Assembly: GCA_902766885.1 (NCBI GenBank)
Contig: CACXFS010000016.1
Span: forward strand, 1 to 53,908
Reading direction: 5' to 3'
Source of the DNA: an uncultured Ruminococcus sp.
GTDB taxonomy: Bacteria; Bacillota; Clostridia; Oscillospirales; Acutalibacteraceae
Length of the DNA: 53,908 bases
Position 1 is the stretch's first letter. Every line of letters starts with the position of its first letter. Below the pieces are notes generated by a model. The model saw nothing but the letters and a program-made list of their open reading frames with translations, ran no database searches and had not been told where the DNA came from. The translations under genes and the position numbers were made by a program. Shown here piece after piece: positions 2,727 to 8,245 of the stretch.

Positions 2727-3935
2727 ATGAAAAAACTACTTTCTGTATTGCTTGCATTGACAATGGTATGCTCGTTTGCGGCATGTTCATCGTCAGAAAG
2801 CAGTCAGACAACCGACACTACTTCTTCGCAGTCAGAAACCTCCGCTGAATCTGTCAGCACCGAGGAAAATAAAGAAAAGCTTGAATGGGTTGACTACGCA
2901 GAATACAACCTTGACGAGGACGTTCCTGCAAAGAACGTAATTCTTATGATTGGCGACGGAATGGGCAAGAACATAATTAAAGCATCCGAAGTCGTTAAGG
3001 GCGATAAGCTTGTAATGAGCGGAATGAAGTACAGAACAGACGTTACTACATATTCTGAGTCGGTAACAAAAGGCTATAAGGAGTTTACCGACAGTGCCGC
3101 GTCGGCAACTGCTATGAGTACGGGCGTTAAGACTCTCAACGGATGCATAGGTGTTGACCCCGACGGAAACAAGCTTGAAACAATCTGCGAATATGCACAG
3201 TCGCTTGATATGGAAACAGGTCTTGTTGCAAGGCAGGTTGTAAGCCACGCAACTCCTGCGGGAATGGTTGCTCATAACAGCTCAAGAGATAACTATTCCC
3301 AGATTCTCCGTGAAATGATAAATGCGGATGTCAACGTAATGTTCGGAGGCGGTTCACAGTACTATACAAATCCTAAGATTCAGAAGGCTATTGAGGATAA
3401 TAATTATAAATACATCACCAAGGCTGACGAGCTTGACGCACTGAATTCGGACGACGACAAGGTGCTCGGAATGTTTGCATATGACAATATGGGCGCCCCC
3501 GATATGGCTCCGTCACTTATGAGAATGACCTCAAAGGCTCTTGATATGCTTGACAATGACAAAGGATTTTTCCTTATGGTAGAGGGCAGTAATATTGATA
3601 CCTACGAAAGCAAGTGTGATATGGAAACAACTCTCGGTCAGATGCAGGACTTTGACAAGGCAGTTGATTACGTTCTCAAATGGGCAGAGGAACATCCCGG
3701 AACACTCGTAATTGTAACAGCCGACCACGAAACAGGCGGAGTAACACTACCCGACAATCCCAAGCCCGAGGATATCAACGACAGTTGCTTTACCTCAGAC
3801 GGAGAGCATACAAACACTAACGTATGGCTATTTGCAAGCGGAGCGCAGTCAAAGGAACTCTGCGAAAAGGACGTTATCGACAACACCGACATCGCAAAAT
3901 ATATGCGCAAGGTGCTTGAAGATTCACATAAGTAA
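2727..3935 (+). CDS. phoA: alkaline phosphatase, lipoprotein (PhoA family)
   Basis: A metal-dependent phosphomonoesterase anchored outside the membrane; the signal peptide ends in lipobox FAAC. Family motifs are in order: MIGDGMG (metal Asp77), TDSAASATA with the nucleophile Ser123, HATPAGMVAHN (Thr176 metal ligand), VEGSNID (Glu286, Asp291), TADHETGG (Asp333, His334) and GEHTNTNVWLFASG (His361). The second zinc-1 histidine (E. coli His331), four residues after Asp291, is a serine here (DTYES), which is unusual. It would release phosphate from extracellular organic phosphates. A 7-bp inverted repeat without a T tract follows the stop codon. Confidence 0.9.
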   Translation: MKKLLSVLLALTMVCSFAACSSSESSQTTDTTSSQSETSAESVSTEENKEKLEWVDYAEYNLDEDVPAKNVILMIGDGMGKNIIKASEVVKGDKLVMSGMKYRTDVTTYSESVTKGYKEFTDSAASATAMSTGVKTLNGCIGVDPDGNKLETICEYAQSLDMETGLVARQVVSHATPAGMVAHNSSRDNYSQILREMINADVNVMFGGGSQYYTNPKIQKAIEDNNYKYITKADELDALNSDDDKVLGMFAYDNMGAPDMAPSLMRMTSKALDMLDNDKGFFLMVEGSNIDTYESKCDMETTLGQMQDFDKAVDYVLKWAEEHPGTLVIVTADHETGGVTLPDNPKPEDINDSCFTSDGEHTNTNVWLFASGAQSKELCEKDVIDNTDIAKYMRKVLEDSHK

Positions 3936-3958
3936 TTCAGAATGTGGTTTCTGAACAA

Positions 3959-3987
3959 TTGACAATCGGGAAATTATGTGATATAAA
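3959..3987 (+). promoter_or_regulatory. promoter of the Lsa-type ABC-F leader transcript
   Basis: TTGACA (3959-3964), exactly 17 bp, then TATAAA (3982-3987). Predicted start near 3994, giving a leader of about 225 nt before the ABC-F start codon. Confidence 0.7.
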
Positions 3988-4019
3988 GTAAAGGAAATCT
4001 ATTTGAACGGAGTGAAAAA

Positions 4020-4040
4020 ATGAGAAATCTTTTCTGCTGA
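4020..4040 (+). CDS. six-residue leader peptide MRNLFC
   Basis: ATG AGA AAT CTT TTC TGC TGA encodes MRNLFC and is preceded by CGGAGTG at a good ribosome-site distance (4008-4014). It lies about 25 bases into the predicted transcript and 180 bases ahead of the ABC-F start, with two hairpins between. Short leader ORFs in this position are known for antibiotic-inducible ABC-F and methyltransferase genes, where a stalled ribosome changes downstream folding. That role here is inference from layout; translation is unproven. Confidence 0.55.
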   Translation: MRNLFC

Positions 4041-4049
4041 TTTTTATTT

Positions 4050-4090
4050 ACAGGCAAATGAAGTAACGGTGTACCCGTTTGCTTTGCTGT
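4050..4090 (+). promoter_or_regulatory. leader hairpin between leader ORF and attenuator
   Basis: The leader RNA can fold with ACAG and CAAA pairing to TTTG and CTGT around an inner AACGG / CCGTT stem with loop TGTAC. It starts 10 bases after the leader ORF stop, close enough for a ribosome stalled on the leader ORF to influence it. The fold was drawn by eye. Confidence 0.4.
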
Positions 4091-4167
4091 GCCTATTAGC
4101 GGAAAAGTTCTTGTTTTGCTCTTGTTGAATTTTCTCTGACATTGTTACAGGGATTCCCTGCGTTTTT

Positions 4168-4206
4168 CGGGCGGCAGAGCTTTTCTGCTGCCCGAATTTT
4201 AGTTTT
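4168..4206 (+). terminator. attenuator-type terminator ahead of the ABC-F gene
   Basis: An 11-bp stem (CGGGCGGCAGA / TCTGCTGCCCG, one G-U pair) with loop GCTTT, followed by AATTTTAGTTTT and then directly by the AAGGGGG ribosome site. A terminator between promoter and ribosome site implies conditional read-through. Confidence 0.7.
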
Positions 4207-4219
4207 AAGGGGGAATTTT

Positions 4220-5716
4220 ATGTCAATGATTAATATTTCAAACCTGACCTTTGCTTATGACGGCAGCTTTGACAATGTTTTTGAAAATGTAAATATACAG
4301 TTGGATACTGACTGGAAGCTAGGCTTGACTGGCAGAAACGGCAGAGGAAAGACCACTCTGCTGAGGCTTTTGATGGGAAAGTACGAATATAAAGGCAGTA
4401 TTTTTTCAAGCGTTGAGTTTGAGTATTTCCCGTTTGAAATTGAGGACAAGTCAAAGCTTACATATGAAGTTGCAGATGAAATCTGTCCCGATTATGAATA
4501 CTGGAAGCTTGCAAGAGAGCTGAATTACCTTGAAGTTAACGAGGAGGTGCTTTACCGTCCGTTTAACACGCTCTCTAACGGAGAGCGAACAAAGGTGATG
4601 ATTGCGCTTTTGTTTATTAAGGACAACAGATTTTTGCTGATTGACGAGCCGACAAATCATCTTGATATAGACGGCAGACGTATTGTCAGCAAATATCTAA
4701 ACTCCAAAAAGGGTTTTATACTTGTTTCGCACGATAGGGCGTTCCTTGACGGTTGTGCAGACCACATTATATCAATCAACCGCAGTGATATTACCGTAAC
4801 AAAGGGCAATTTTTCGCAGTGGCTTGAAAACAAGGAAAGGCAGGATAACTTTGAGCTTGCCGAAAATGAAAAGCTTAAAAAGGAGATAAAACGTCTTGAA
4901 AAAACCGCAAGGCAAAAGTCCGAGTGGGCAGACAGGTCGGAAAGTAAAAAAATCGGCTTTGACCCCACAAAAACCGAAAAAAGTATAAGCAGACGAGCGT
5001 ATGAGGGTGCAAAGTCGAAAAAGATGATGAAGCGTTCAAAGCAGATTGAACAGCGGAGCTATAAAGCGGTTGAAGAAAAGTCAAAGCTGCTTAAGAATTT
5101 GGAGCGTGAAGATGATTTAAAAATCGCACCGCTTGAATATGTTAAAAACACGCTTGCGGAATTTGAAAACGTCGCAATATCCTACGACGGCAGAACGGTT
5201 TGCAGTAACGTAAGCTTTAAAATAGAAAAGGGCGACAGGATTGCACTCTGCGGAAAAAACGGCAGCGGAAAGTCAAGTATCATAAAGCTATTGTGCGGAA
5301 ATGATATTGATTATGTCGGCAGGGTATCTGTCGGAAGCGGACTTGTAATTTCTTACGTTCCTCAGGAAACCGACAGTCTGTCGGGAAATCTTAAAGATTA
5401 TGCGGAGAAAATGAATATTGACGAGAGTCTGTTCATGGCAATTCTTCGAAAGCTTGATTTTCAGAGGTCACAGTTTGATAAAAATATCGAGGATTTCAGC
5501 GGAGGACAGAAGAAAAAGGTTCTTATAGCTGCAAGCCTTTGCCAAAAGGCACATTTGTACGTCTGGGACGAGCCGCTGAATTTTATCGACGTCATTTCAA
5601 GAATACAGATTGAAAAGCTTATAAATAATTTCAATCCCACAATGATTTTTGTCGAGCACGACGCCGCCTTTTGCCAAAACACAGCAAATAAAACGGTGGT
5701 GCTGAACAATGATTAG
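4220..5716 (+). CDS. lsa: Lsa-type ABC-F ribosome protection protein
   Basis: A 498-residue cytoplasmic ABC-F protein, the usual length for Lsa proteins, with two ATPase domains and no membrane segments. Domain 1 has GRNGRGKTT (38-46), LSNGE (118-122) and LLIDEPTNHLDI; domain 2 has GKNGSGKSS (345-353), FSGGQ and VWDEPLNFIDVISRIQIE. A basic linker (about 206-300) would reach into the ribosome. The N-terminus (INISNLTFAYDGSFDNVFEN) and the divergent second Walker B closely recall Lsa proteins, which protect ribosomes from lincosamides, pleuromutilins and streptogramin A. The ATG at 4220 follows AAGGGGG; an upstream in-frame ATG (4142) lies inside the attenuator region. The resistance spectrum is inferred. 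Confidence 0.85.
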   Translation: MSMINISNLTFAYDGSFDNVFENVNIQLDTDWKLGLTGRNGRGKTTLLRLLMGKYEYKGSIFSSVEFEYFPFEIEDKSKLTYEVADEICPDYEYWKLARELNYLEVNEEVLYRPFNTLSNGERTKVMIALLFIKDNRFLLIDEPTNHLDIDGRRIVSKYLNSKKGFILVSHDRAFLDGCADHIISINRSDITVTKGNFSQWLENKERQDNFELAENEKLKKEIKRLEKTARQKSEWADRSESKKIGFDPTKTEKSISRRAYEGAKSKKMMKRSKQIEQRSYKAVEEKSKLLKNLEREDDLKIAPLEYVKNTLAEFENVAISYDGRTVCSNVSFKIEKGDRIALCGKNGSGKSSIIKLLCGNDIDYVGRVSVGSGLVISYVPQETDSLSGNLKDYAEKMNIDESLFMAILRKLDFQRSQFDKNIEDFSGGQKKKVLIAASLCQKAHLYVWDEPLNFIDVISRIQIEKLINNFNPTMIFVEHDAAFCQNTANKTVVLNND

Positions 5717-5739
5717 CAATTACGAACGGAGTTGGTTTT

Positions 5740-6390
5740 ATGAGTAAAACAGGCATAATTTTTGATTTGGACGGTACCTTGTGGAATACGTCCGAAACAA
5801 TAGTGCCGATATGGAATGAGGTTTTGAAAAGTCACAGCGAAACCGACAAACAGCTTACCGTAACGGAAATGAACGGATATATGGGCAAAACTTTGGAACA
5901 GATTGCAAGGCTGATGTTGCCAAAGCTTGATTTGGAAAATGCAATGGCAATTGTGTATGAGTGTTGTGACGTTGAGCGAGATTATTTGCGAAAGGTCGGC
6001 GGAAAGCTGTACGATAACCTTGCCGAAACATTAAAACAGCTTAAAGAAAAACATAGTCTTTACATCGTCAGCAATTGTCAGGACGGATATGTTCAGGCTT
6101 TTCTTGATTTTCACGGCTTTAACGAAATTTTTGATGATTTTGAAATGTCGGGAAGAACAAAGAAATCAAAGGGTGAAAACATTAAACTGATAATTGAGCG
6201 AAATAATCTTGACAAGGCTGTCTATGTAGGCGATACTCAAGGCGATTATGATGCGGCAAAGGCAGCAGGTGTTCCGTTTGTTTTTGCAGAATACGGCTTT
6301 GGCAGTATTGATAGCTTTGAATATTCCATAGAAGAATTTTACAGATTGCCCAGTGTGGCTGAACAGGTGTTTTTAACTGTTGCAAATTGA
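5740..6390 (+). CDS. HAD-family hydrolase, phosphoglycolate phosphatase-like
   Basis: A 216-residue haloacid dehalogenase-type phosphatase. Motif I is FDLDGTLW near residues 8-15 (nucleophile and acid/base Asp), motif II is the Ser in VSNCQD, motif III the Lys of KSKGENIKL, and motif IV is GDTQGDYDAAKAAG. A small helical cap sits between motifs I and II. It starts 23 bases after the Lsa-type gene with its own GGAG site, so it is probably co-transcribed. The substrate cannot be told from sequence. Confidence 0.88.
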   Translation: MSKTGIIFDLDGTLWNTSETIVPIWNEVLKSHSETDKQLTVTEMNGYMGKTLEQIARLMLPKLDLENAMAIVYECCDVERDYLRKVGGKLYDNLAETLKQLKEKHSLYIVSNCQDGYVQAFLDFHGFNEIFDDFEMSGRTKKSKGENIKLIIERNNLDKAVYVGDTQGDYDAAKAAGVPFVFAEYGFGSIDSFEYSIEEFYRLPSVAEQVFLTVAN

Positions 6391-6466
6391 TGATTAAGAG
6401 TGTATTAAAATTTATCAAGTAGTACTATGTTCCTATATTAACTAAGAACAAAAAGGGGAATGACAG

Positions 6467-8245
6467 GTGAAAGGTGTTAAACAATCAGTAGCTCTGCTGA
6501 GAAAGGCGTGGCAGCAGGTTTTTATATTTGAAATCGTTTACAAGTTATTGACTAATTTTGTTGTTATTCCTGCGCTGAGGTTTGCTTTCAATGCGCTTAC
6601 CGCAACAACAAAGTCATCATACCTCACCGAGAGCAATTTAACAAACGCATTCAGTCCGATTTTTATTATCGGCTGTATCGTAATCGTAATTATTTCAACA
6701 GTTTATTTCCTGCTTGAAATTGGCGTTCTGCTGTCAATTCTGAAAAGCGCATATTTTGATGAAGAAACAACTTTGTTCTTTCACATTAAAAGAACTTTTA
6801 TCAGAATAAAAGACGTGTTCAGGCCTAAAAATCTGTGGCTCATTCCATTTTCGATGATACTCGTTCCTATTACAAATATGTTTCTCGCATCAAGCTTCAT
6901 TCCGAATATTGCAATTCCCGACGTTGTTTTCGACACGCTTGTAAACGACGTTGCGTCAGCCTGCATAACTTTATTTGTTATGCTTATCCTGATTTTGCTG
7001 TCAATGTTCCTTATGTTTACATACAACCCGTTTTTTATTGAGGGCAAAAATGCAAACGAGTCAGCAAAAATAAGTTTCAGACTTGTTAAAAGGAGAAAAT
7101 GGAAGCTATTTAAGTCGCTGTTTCCGATGTCAATTATCCTCACGCTTGTGTTCTGGGCAAATATGACTGTGTCGTTTATTATAAAACTCCTTATCCTGAA
7201 CAATACGACAAACGGCGATTTATACTATTTATTTGTGGCGTTGTTTTTGTGCTTGCAGTGGCTGTTTTCAATGCTTATTTCCATATTCAGCATCGGCGTT
7301 TCCTACTGCAAAATCACAAATCTGTTCTACAAATTCAAGCAGGAGGAGGGAATGGAAATTCCTGCGAAAGCAGAGATAAAAGCTCCAGACCAAAATAAAA
7401 AATCGTATGCAAAGAGAATAATTACATACTGTATTTTAATTTTTATCGTTCTGTCAACTGCGTCAAATAAAGTCTATTTGCAGAATAATGACTCAGTAAA
7501 GAATGAGCAAATCAGCAAAATTACCGTTACCTCGCTCAGCGTTGATAATTTTACAACACCGAAAGATACTTTGCAGTCATTTGAATTATGCGTCAATTCG
7601 GGTGCGGATTGCATAAAAACGCCTGTTTGGCTTACAAAGGACGGAAAGCCGGTTGCTCTTAGTAACGACAACGTAAAGGAGTTGACGGGAATTGATAAAA
7701 GCGTTAGGGACTTAACGTTTGATGAAATTAAAAAACTCGACGTTGTTGATGACTTGGATTCGGATGAAAAATATGAAATTGCATCGCTTGAGGAATTAAT
7801 TAATCTTTGCGAAGGCAAAACAAAGCTGAACATTGAAATTAAAACAGAAGATGCTGTGCAAAAGGCTGTTGATGAAATCAGAAAATACGACGTTGAAAAT
7901 GACTGCGTTATTTCCTCGTTCAGCTATCCCGTTTTGCAGGAAGTGAGAAAGATTGCTCCGAATATAAAAATCGGCTGTGAAATGTCAATTGCGCAGGGCG
8001 ATATTTATTCCCTTGACGTTGACTTTTTCGAGATTGAATCAAGCTATGTGAGTTCAAATATGATTTCAAAAATTCACGACAGCGGCAAAGAAATTTCAAT
8101 CAGGACGATAGACGATGAAGAATCCCTGCTCAAAATAATTGATACGGGTGTCGATAACATTGTGACAAACGAGCCTGAAATGATTAAAGAAATGCTGTCC
8201 CGTGACAACAACTGGATTCGTTCCGTTATGGACAGAGCGGCTTGA
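6467..8245 (+). CDS. membrane protein with degenerate GDPD-like domain
   Basis: A 592-residue protein with an N-terminal membrane domain (hydrophobic segments near residues 20-45, 65-92, 122-145, 163-187, 218-245, 253-280) and a seventh helix (317-335) leading to a C-terminal TIM-barrel-like domain (about 350-585). Conserved GDPD framework remains: WLTKDGKPVAL, LTFDEIKKLDV, LNIEIKTE and DTGVDNIVTNEPE. The catalytic positions are gone: the HRG strand reads VTSLS, the E-x-D pair reads KTP and the HD motif reads SND. Membrane-domain GDPDs normally cleave glycerophosphodiesters; this copy is probably not an enzyme. GTG start after AAGGGG. Confidence 0.8.
   Translation: MKGVKQSVALLRKAWQQVFIFEIVYKLLTNFVVIPALRFAFNALTATTKSSYLTESNLTNAFSPIFIIGCIVIVIISTVYFLLEIGVLLSILKSAYFDEETTLFFHIKRTFIRIKDVFRPKNLWLIPFSMILVPITNMFLASSFIPNIAIPDVVFDTLVNDVASACITLFVMLILILLSMFLMFTYNPFFIEGKNANESAKISFRLVKRRKWKLFKSLFPMSIILTLVFWANMTVSFIIKLLILNNTTNGDLYYLFVALFLCLQWLFSMLISIFSIGVSYCKITNLFYKFKQEEGMEIPAKAEIKAPDQNKKSYAKRIITYCILIFIVLSTASNKVYLQNNDSVKNEQISKITVTSLSVDNFTTPKDTLQSFELCVNSGADCIKTPVWLTKDGKPVALSNDNVKELTGIDKSVRDLTFDEIKKLDVVDDLDSDEKYEIASLEELINLCEGKTKLNIEIKTEDAVQKAVDEIRKYDVENDCVISSFSYPVLQEVRKIAPNIKIGCEMSIAQGDIYSLDVDFFEIESSYVSSNMISKIHDSGKEISIRTIDDEESLLKIIDTGVDNIVTNEPEMIKEMLSRDNNWIRSVMDRAA

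Follow-up and report, generated by a model that had tools for sequence, protein, structure and literature searches.

A probable RNA switch by which a drug that jams the ribosome at the first codon of a short upstream reading frame turns on an Lsa-type ABC-F gene

The window (the whole stretch of DNA analysed) is one entire contig of 53,908 bases from a genome of 2.02 Mb. Its plus strand carries an Lsa-family ABC-F ribosomal protection gene of 498 codons, which extends from an ATG at 4220 to the end of the stop codon at 5716. The product has two ABC domains joined by a linker, and its top match among 178 NCBIfam families is ABCF_Lsa_all (NF000167) with 743.5 bits, just under the curated cut-off of 750; it also scores 493.8 bits against ribo_prot_ABC_F (cut-off 380), and the closest solved structure is that of Lsa(A) of Enterococcus faecalis (7nhk, E 1.3e-140 over 1–496). 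On these sequence matches the protein is Lsa-like, as the preliminary description had proposed, with a putative role in ribosomal protection. Lincosamides, streptogramin A and pleuromutilins, which act at the peptidyl-transferase centre, make up the drug spectrum of Lsa proteins. Within the genus of the window an Lsa-like gene (E <=1e-120) is patchy, being found in four of 60 genomes (G000, G001, G030 and G038; the window's genome is included in the 60), and it is therefore frequently lost or mobile.

The gene is preceded on the same strand by a compact leader. A promoter consisting of TTGACA (3959–3964), a 17-base spacer and TATAAA (3982–3987), with a TGA ahead of the TATAAA, can be read from the sequence, and the same elements (TTGACA..TGATATAAA) lie upstream of the sister leader L002; a pattern scan did not list the promoter at 3959–3987, its rule demanding a final T in the −10 box. 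A Shine–Dalgarno core GGAG (4009–4012) is located 7 bases ahead of the ATG at 4020, with a duplex energy of −6.1, and is followed by a short upstream open reading frame (uORF) encoding MRNLFC and ending in TGA (4020–4040), which has comparable short counterparts in homologues. Further downstream are an intrinsic terminator hairpin (4166–4196) with 13-base arms, a 5-base loop and an energy of about −23.5 kcal/mol, its T-rich tail (4197–4205) and AAGGGGG, the Shine–Dalgarno site of the ABC-F gene (4207–4213). The promoter, the six-codon reading frame and both ribosome sites thus agree with the preliminary description, and so does the presence of a terminator with a T tract, but its stem comprises 13 pairs (one of them G-U) and not 11. 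The 41-base hairpin of that description also exists, at about 4052–4094, but in folding it forms no more than the end of a larger hairpin, in which the uORF is paired with about 4095–4108. A TTG-started extension of the ABC-F frame (4142), which runs through the terminator, is purely mechanical and was rejected. The leader RNA as a whole (3990–4225) folds at −84.2 kcal/mol compared with −56.1 (s.d. 4.5) for 200 shuffles (z −6.3); the terminator pattern by itself is less special, with four found against 2.5 expected in 3500–6500. Rfam gave no match in the window at the gathering score and just one tRNA in 16 homologous loci.

The preliminary description had overlooked two features: part of the uORF is repeated exactly within the terminator, and another segment can pair with both copies. 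Positions 4029–4039 (CTTTTCTGCTG), which comprise codons 4–6 and most of the stop codon, recur as an exact 11-base copy at 4180–4190 in the terminator loop and 3' arm, and this is the sole direct repeat of at least 9 bases reported within 4000–4215. The segment complementary to both copies is TAGCGGAAAAGT (4097–4108). The leader can accordingly be described by three segments: segment 1 (4029–4041), the part of the uORF that mimics the terminator; segment 2 (4097–4108); and segment 3 (4180–4190), the copy within the terminator. Pairing of segment 2 with segment 1 gives an anti-antiterminator capped by the apical hairpin, and pairing with segment 3 gives an antiterminator. The three-part pairing of the window scores above all 40 shuffles (the smallest attainable p being 1/41), and its uORF:middle and terminator:middle pairings outrank 99% and 92%, respectively, of those obtained by swapping segments between leaders. 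A uORF with a ribosome site upstream of an intrinsic terminator and an anti-antiterminator that overlaps the uORF, two of the features of an attenuator of the vmlR kind, are both present.

Homologous leaders were taken from 98 relatives, from GTDB species genomes (the best 80 of 593 relatives) and from genome sets of the order and of the family of one Paenibacillus, in which 102 of 394 and 176 of 245 genomes, respectively, hold an Lsa-like gene (E <=1e-120). Nine places listed in the order search were left out of the leader set, and 110 of the more than 150 places listed in the Paenibacillus-family search were used. The first set comprised 180 leaders, 167 of them distinct (L130 was dropped; L087 and L157 were kept with doubtful starts), and the second 107 distinct leaders, four of which are plasmid candidates. 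Filtering gave 268 leaders of at least 250 bases, of which 236 had a strong terminator and 32 had none by the rule used. In 175 of these 236 the three-part design scored above all 40 dinucleotide shuffles, the remaining 61 failing to do so; the mean scores of the two competing pairings were 24.9 and 22.8, versus 16.1 and 15.9 for the shuffles. A start codon linked to a Shine–Dalgarno site was found at segment 1 in 162 of the 175 three-part leaders, the other 13 being left startless by the uORF picker, although at least L231 has a start. The picker errs at times: in L050 it took MIVLI though MDISC lies there, and some GTG picks overlap an ATG-TGA. An attenuator with a translated-looking reading frame ahead of an Lsa-type gene, as originally suggested for the window, is thus supported and conserved among homologues. 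In four more distant Lsa relatives (L016, L011, L013 and L014), with short uORFs MYRISR, MKNR, MRK and MRILIA, the three-part pairing is not above shuffles, and these leaders may use another arrangement. By eye, the leaders of lsa(B) (L227) and of a Priestia plasmid gene (L229) are also unlike the window type.

We consider it quite likely that the leader is a ribosome-controlled transcription attenuator which senses through a ribosome halted at or just after the start codon, the uORF serving as a stopping place and as a copy of the terminator rather than encoding a specific arrest peptide. In the absence of drug, ribosomes would start at the AUG at 4020 and leave quickly, and segment 1 (4029–4041) would pair with segment 2 (4097–4108); with segment 2 occupied, the terminator (4166–4196) would form and RNA polymerase would stop before the lsa gene. 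A drug bound at the peptidyl-transferase centre (a lincosamide, streptogramin A or a pleuromutilin) would halt the ribosome at or just after the start codon, where it would cover segment 1. Segment 2 would then be freed to pair with the terminator loop and 3' arm, segment 3 being a copy of segment 1, and the lsa gene would be transcribed. For this species we infer the translation of the uORF, the identity of the inducing drugs and the read-through. The short RNA switch probably turns on the Lsa gene in this way, when a drug jams the ribosome at the first uORF codon.

A halted ribosome was simulated in 162 leaders by masking bases −14 to +15 around the AUG. The mean terminator probability was 0.96 without a ribosome and 0.37 with the mask, the antiterminator appearing in its place, and it fell below 0.5 in 101 of the 162 leaders compared with one of 162 for a control mask placed 40 nt downstream. 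By class, the flip occurred in 61 of 71 leaders in which the AUG is directly followed by a stop codon (start-stop leaders) and in 37 of 83 with 5–8 codons. The result fits drugs of the Lsa spectrum, which in toeprints halt ribosomes at the start codons of Streptomyces ABC-F leaders, according to the available text of PMC12421871. The window leader itself shows no equilibrium flip for a ribosome on any of codons 1–6, the terminator probability staying at 0.97, and its antiterminator duplex (−15.4) is less stable than its terminator (−23.5); the duplex is the weaker of the two structures in 124 of the 162 leaders. The sister leader L002 flips completely; it shares the uORF of the window, carries additional sequence after segment 2 and ahead of the terminator, and precedes a gene whose protein is 90% identical. 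Either co-transcriptional kinetics decide the outcome in the window, or its copy is weaker or worn. We regard it as rather unlikely that the window holds a worn or largely constitutive terminator, with a switch that works in relatives and no longer opens here. Such decay would agree with the terminator probability at every simulated ribosome position and with the flip of the sister leader and its additional sequence, but the promoter, the Shine–Dalgarno site, the start codon, the exact 11-base repeat and segment 2 have all been kept, the window pairings outrank most swaps (0.99 and 0.92) and equilibrium folding ignores co-transcriptional kinetics.

The comparison of homologous leaders called for by the preliminary description showed the uORF to be conserved as a place to start translation and not as a peptide. 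The Shine–Dalgarno site, the start codon and a terminator-copying segment, which in most leaders ends 15–18 bases after the A of the AUG, are conserved. The peptides vary: MRNLFC occurs in just two of 119 scored leaders, and others include MINFSCK, MRNFSC, MYNFSC, MRHTSC and MDISC, with Ser-Cys in 83 of the 119 uORF peptides. Own pairings exceeded the mean of swapped pairings in 103 of 118 leaders for uORF:middle (p 5.5e-18) and in 101 of 118 for terminator:middle (p 8.0e-18; Wilcoxon), and the direct likeness of uORF and terminator was above the swapped mean in 83 of 118; the test covered 118 of the 119 leaders and made swaps among non-close relatives, a rough control for relatedness. An alignment (A2) of 50 of the 66 leaders with a sense uORF (the 16 left out being mostly from Paenibacillaceae or without a final Cys) has a consensus helix of eight pairs, five of which are changed on both sides; one pair is U-A in 22 leaders, U-G in 15 and C-G in 13. 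In the 61 of 119 leaders that could be scored, the third position of the Ser codon in the uORF (TCT or TCC) and the corresponding terminator base were T-T in 36, C-C in 15, T-C in ten and C-T in none (Fisher p 4.6e-8). The change between TCT and TCC is synonymous and cannot be selected via the peptide. All three tests point to a constraint on the RNA, and base pairing explains the conserved Ser-Cys codons. Thus, the architecture is conserved and the peptide is not. Computation shows the parts and the repeat, that the three segments are conserved and co-vary across the family, and that a flip is predicted for most relatives.

These results bear on the original proposal that MRNLFC is itself the stalling sensor. 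On such a reading the nascent chain and the drug would together arrest the ribosome in the fashion of macrolide leaders. Across the family the composition of residues 2 and 3 is indeed biased (R 49, I 27 and Y 12, and N 40, of 119), the MRK variant of the vmlR uORF induces less well than MIN in the available text of PMC9226507, and the same group, in the part of PMC10201436 at hand, calls the identity of the uORF crucial, so that codons may count there. Nevertheless, the peptides differ widely, 73 of the 175 three-part leaders have no sense codon after the AUG, the conserved Ser-Cys codons are accounted for by pairing and synonymous co-variation, and Lsa-type drugs are described as acting at the first steps after initiation (PMC9226507 and PMC12421871, as far as their available text goes). 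A peptide conserved independently of RNA pairing was not found across the scored leaders, and we judge arrest by a specific peptide to be improbable. The variable peptide and the 73 leaders in which a stop codon directly follows the AUG point instead to a ribosome halted on the start codon as the most likely sensor, in line with what has been published for vmlR and for Streptomyces ARE5 leaders. Sensing of charged tRNA-Cys through the conserved Cys codon at the uORF end, for which Cys in 95 of 119 uORFs chosen by their Shine–Dalgarno site might speak, is very improbable, as the Cys codon is single, belongs to the copied segment and is absent from all start-stop leaders, and the downstream gene is not a cysteine gene.

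The 73 start-stop leaders, in which a ribosome site precedes the AUG, have TAA (36), TAG (21) or TGA (16) as the second codon and come from Paenibacillaceae and one member of the Thermoactinomycetaceae. Under slightly different rules, 55 of the 75 leaders in the Paenibacillaceae set have a start-stop uORF, as do 16 of 87 others, these 16 belonging to Paenibacillus, Brevibacillus, Cohnella and Shimazuella. An upstream in-frame ATG is present in 26 of the 73 leaders and no in-frame start of any kind lies upstream in 18; a comparable ribosome site accompanies such a start in four. When leaders of the Paenibacillaceae family were anchored on the copied core, with no prior choice of start codon, the core was found in 83 of 104 (21 having no anchor), an ATG lay 15–20 bases before the core end in 76 of the 83, and a stop was the next codon in 62 of these 76. 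As a weak test of whether the stop codons are a mere effect of pairing (GTAA with TTAC), in which case variation limited to purines should yield some ATG-TGG, two TGG codons were seen against about 5.7 expected, together with 33 TAA, 24 TAG and 14 TGA. Counted from the A of the AUG, the end of the copied core is at +16 in most start-stop leaders (52 of 67), whereas leaders of 5–8 codons mostly have it at +18 (49 of 69); by analogy with the vmlR toeprint at +16, given in the available text of PMC9226507, the core end would lie at about the edge of a ribosome with the AUG in its P site. The ribosome site of start-stop leaders is 12 bases from the ATG in 41 of 71, a spacing longer than usual, and there is therefore less confidence that it is used. 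In a quick tree of 85 full proteins the start-stop label needs at least seven changes, two of which are forced by well supported branches.

We lean towards the reading that a bacterial sensor of antibiotics can do without a peptide, as Lsa-type leaders would show, the uORF having shrunk in some of them to AUG plus stop. The MRNLFC frame of the window would then sense at its start codon in the same way, its few further codons being dispensable. In start-stop leaders, release (or the first step) would fail on the initiation complex while the drug occupies the peptidyl-transferase centre. In classical work, lincomycin-type drugs inhibit the release of fMet from AUG-stop templates, which would explain how a start-stop uORF senses them. 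Start-stop leaders offer a direct way of testing whether arrest of initiation by a drug is enough by itself to control a resistance gene. Start-stop sites in E. coli are reportedly found in the retapamulin work of Meydan et al. in 2019. In Campylobacter, putative start-stop sites have likewise been reported, in which the stop codon comes immediately or almost immediately after the initiation codon; unlike the Lsa leaders, these are not connected with any attenuator of antibiotic resistance in the available text of PMC11955535.

Attenuation of ABC-F genes by uORFs is established for vmlR, cplR, are5sc and tiaA (PMC9226507, PMC10201436 and PMC12421871, in their available text), and the window copy alone is a further example; novelty rests on the leader family, which includes what looks like a peptide-free start-stop sensor, apparently a new one. 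The leader of Bacillus subtilis vmlR resembles that of the window in having a short uORF within an anti-antiterminator, an antiterminator, a terminator and an ABC-F gene of the same drug spectrum, but its uORF is MIN (variants MDN, MDK and MRK), with a start-codon toeprint at +16, and the protein belongs to subfamily ARE2, whereas that of the window is ARE3/Lsa; neither a uORF copied in the terminator nor a start-stop uORF is reported for vmlR in the available text of PMC9226507. Clostridioides difficile cplR and E. faecalis LsaA are likewise uORF-controlled, the LsaA uORF being a prediction there, and according to the part of PMC10201436 at hand their uORFs, MR[I/M] and the consensus MAGN (from homologues of at least 80% identity), are neither M-x-x-x-S-C nor start-stop. 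In Streptomyces coelicolor, are5sc and tiaA have uORFs MLV and MVGDDDISG with a terminator/antiterminator and a drug stall at the start codon, as proposed for the window, but they differ in subfamily (ARE5) and sequence; toeprints at the start codons of Streptomyces ARE5 uORFs were obtained with lincomycin, clindamycin, tiamulin and pristinamycin IIA and not with erythromycin (available text of PMC12421871). The open-access literature searched yielded no description of Lsa leaders of the M-x-x-x-S-C type, nor of any resistance gene under the control of a start-stop uORF, although an earlier description is possible, and a literature search for the leader peptides themselves returned no relevant paper, only chance strings inside words. 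The leader peptides look conserved though the peptide may be irrelevant, since their codons make up one half of a switch in the RNA.

The leader family would extend drug-sensing attenuation to many Lsa genes in Firmicutes, among them the mobile lsa(E). This mobile plasmid gene has the leader peptide MYNFSC (L226 338–358) and a terminator (L226 338–545 in all), about 155 bases before the gene; among 72,556 plasmid records 107 contain the leader, and none of the eight matches listed coincides with an annotated feature. A covariance model of the uORF hairpin, built in part from the same genomes, matches 71 of the 394 genomes of the order, 66 of which also hold an Lsa gene; the genome of the window has a single match (E 9.3e-13). 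Two of the matches without an Lsa gene are a locus cut by contig ends (L320, L321) and a marginal hit (L325, E 0.0016). In G180 a leader with MRNISCK stands before an apparent decayed lsa remnant (L322 120–940). In G354 a uORF hairpin (MHKFSC; L324 2470–3030, minus strand) is found without an evident lsa gene, the next gene encoding a probable secreted protein. In G270 the full leader, with uORF MIYVSC, middle segment and terminator (L323 2640–3030, minus strand), precedes not an ABC-F gene but one for an MsbA-like ABC exporter of 571 amino acids.
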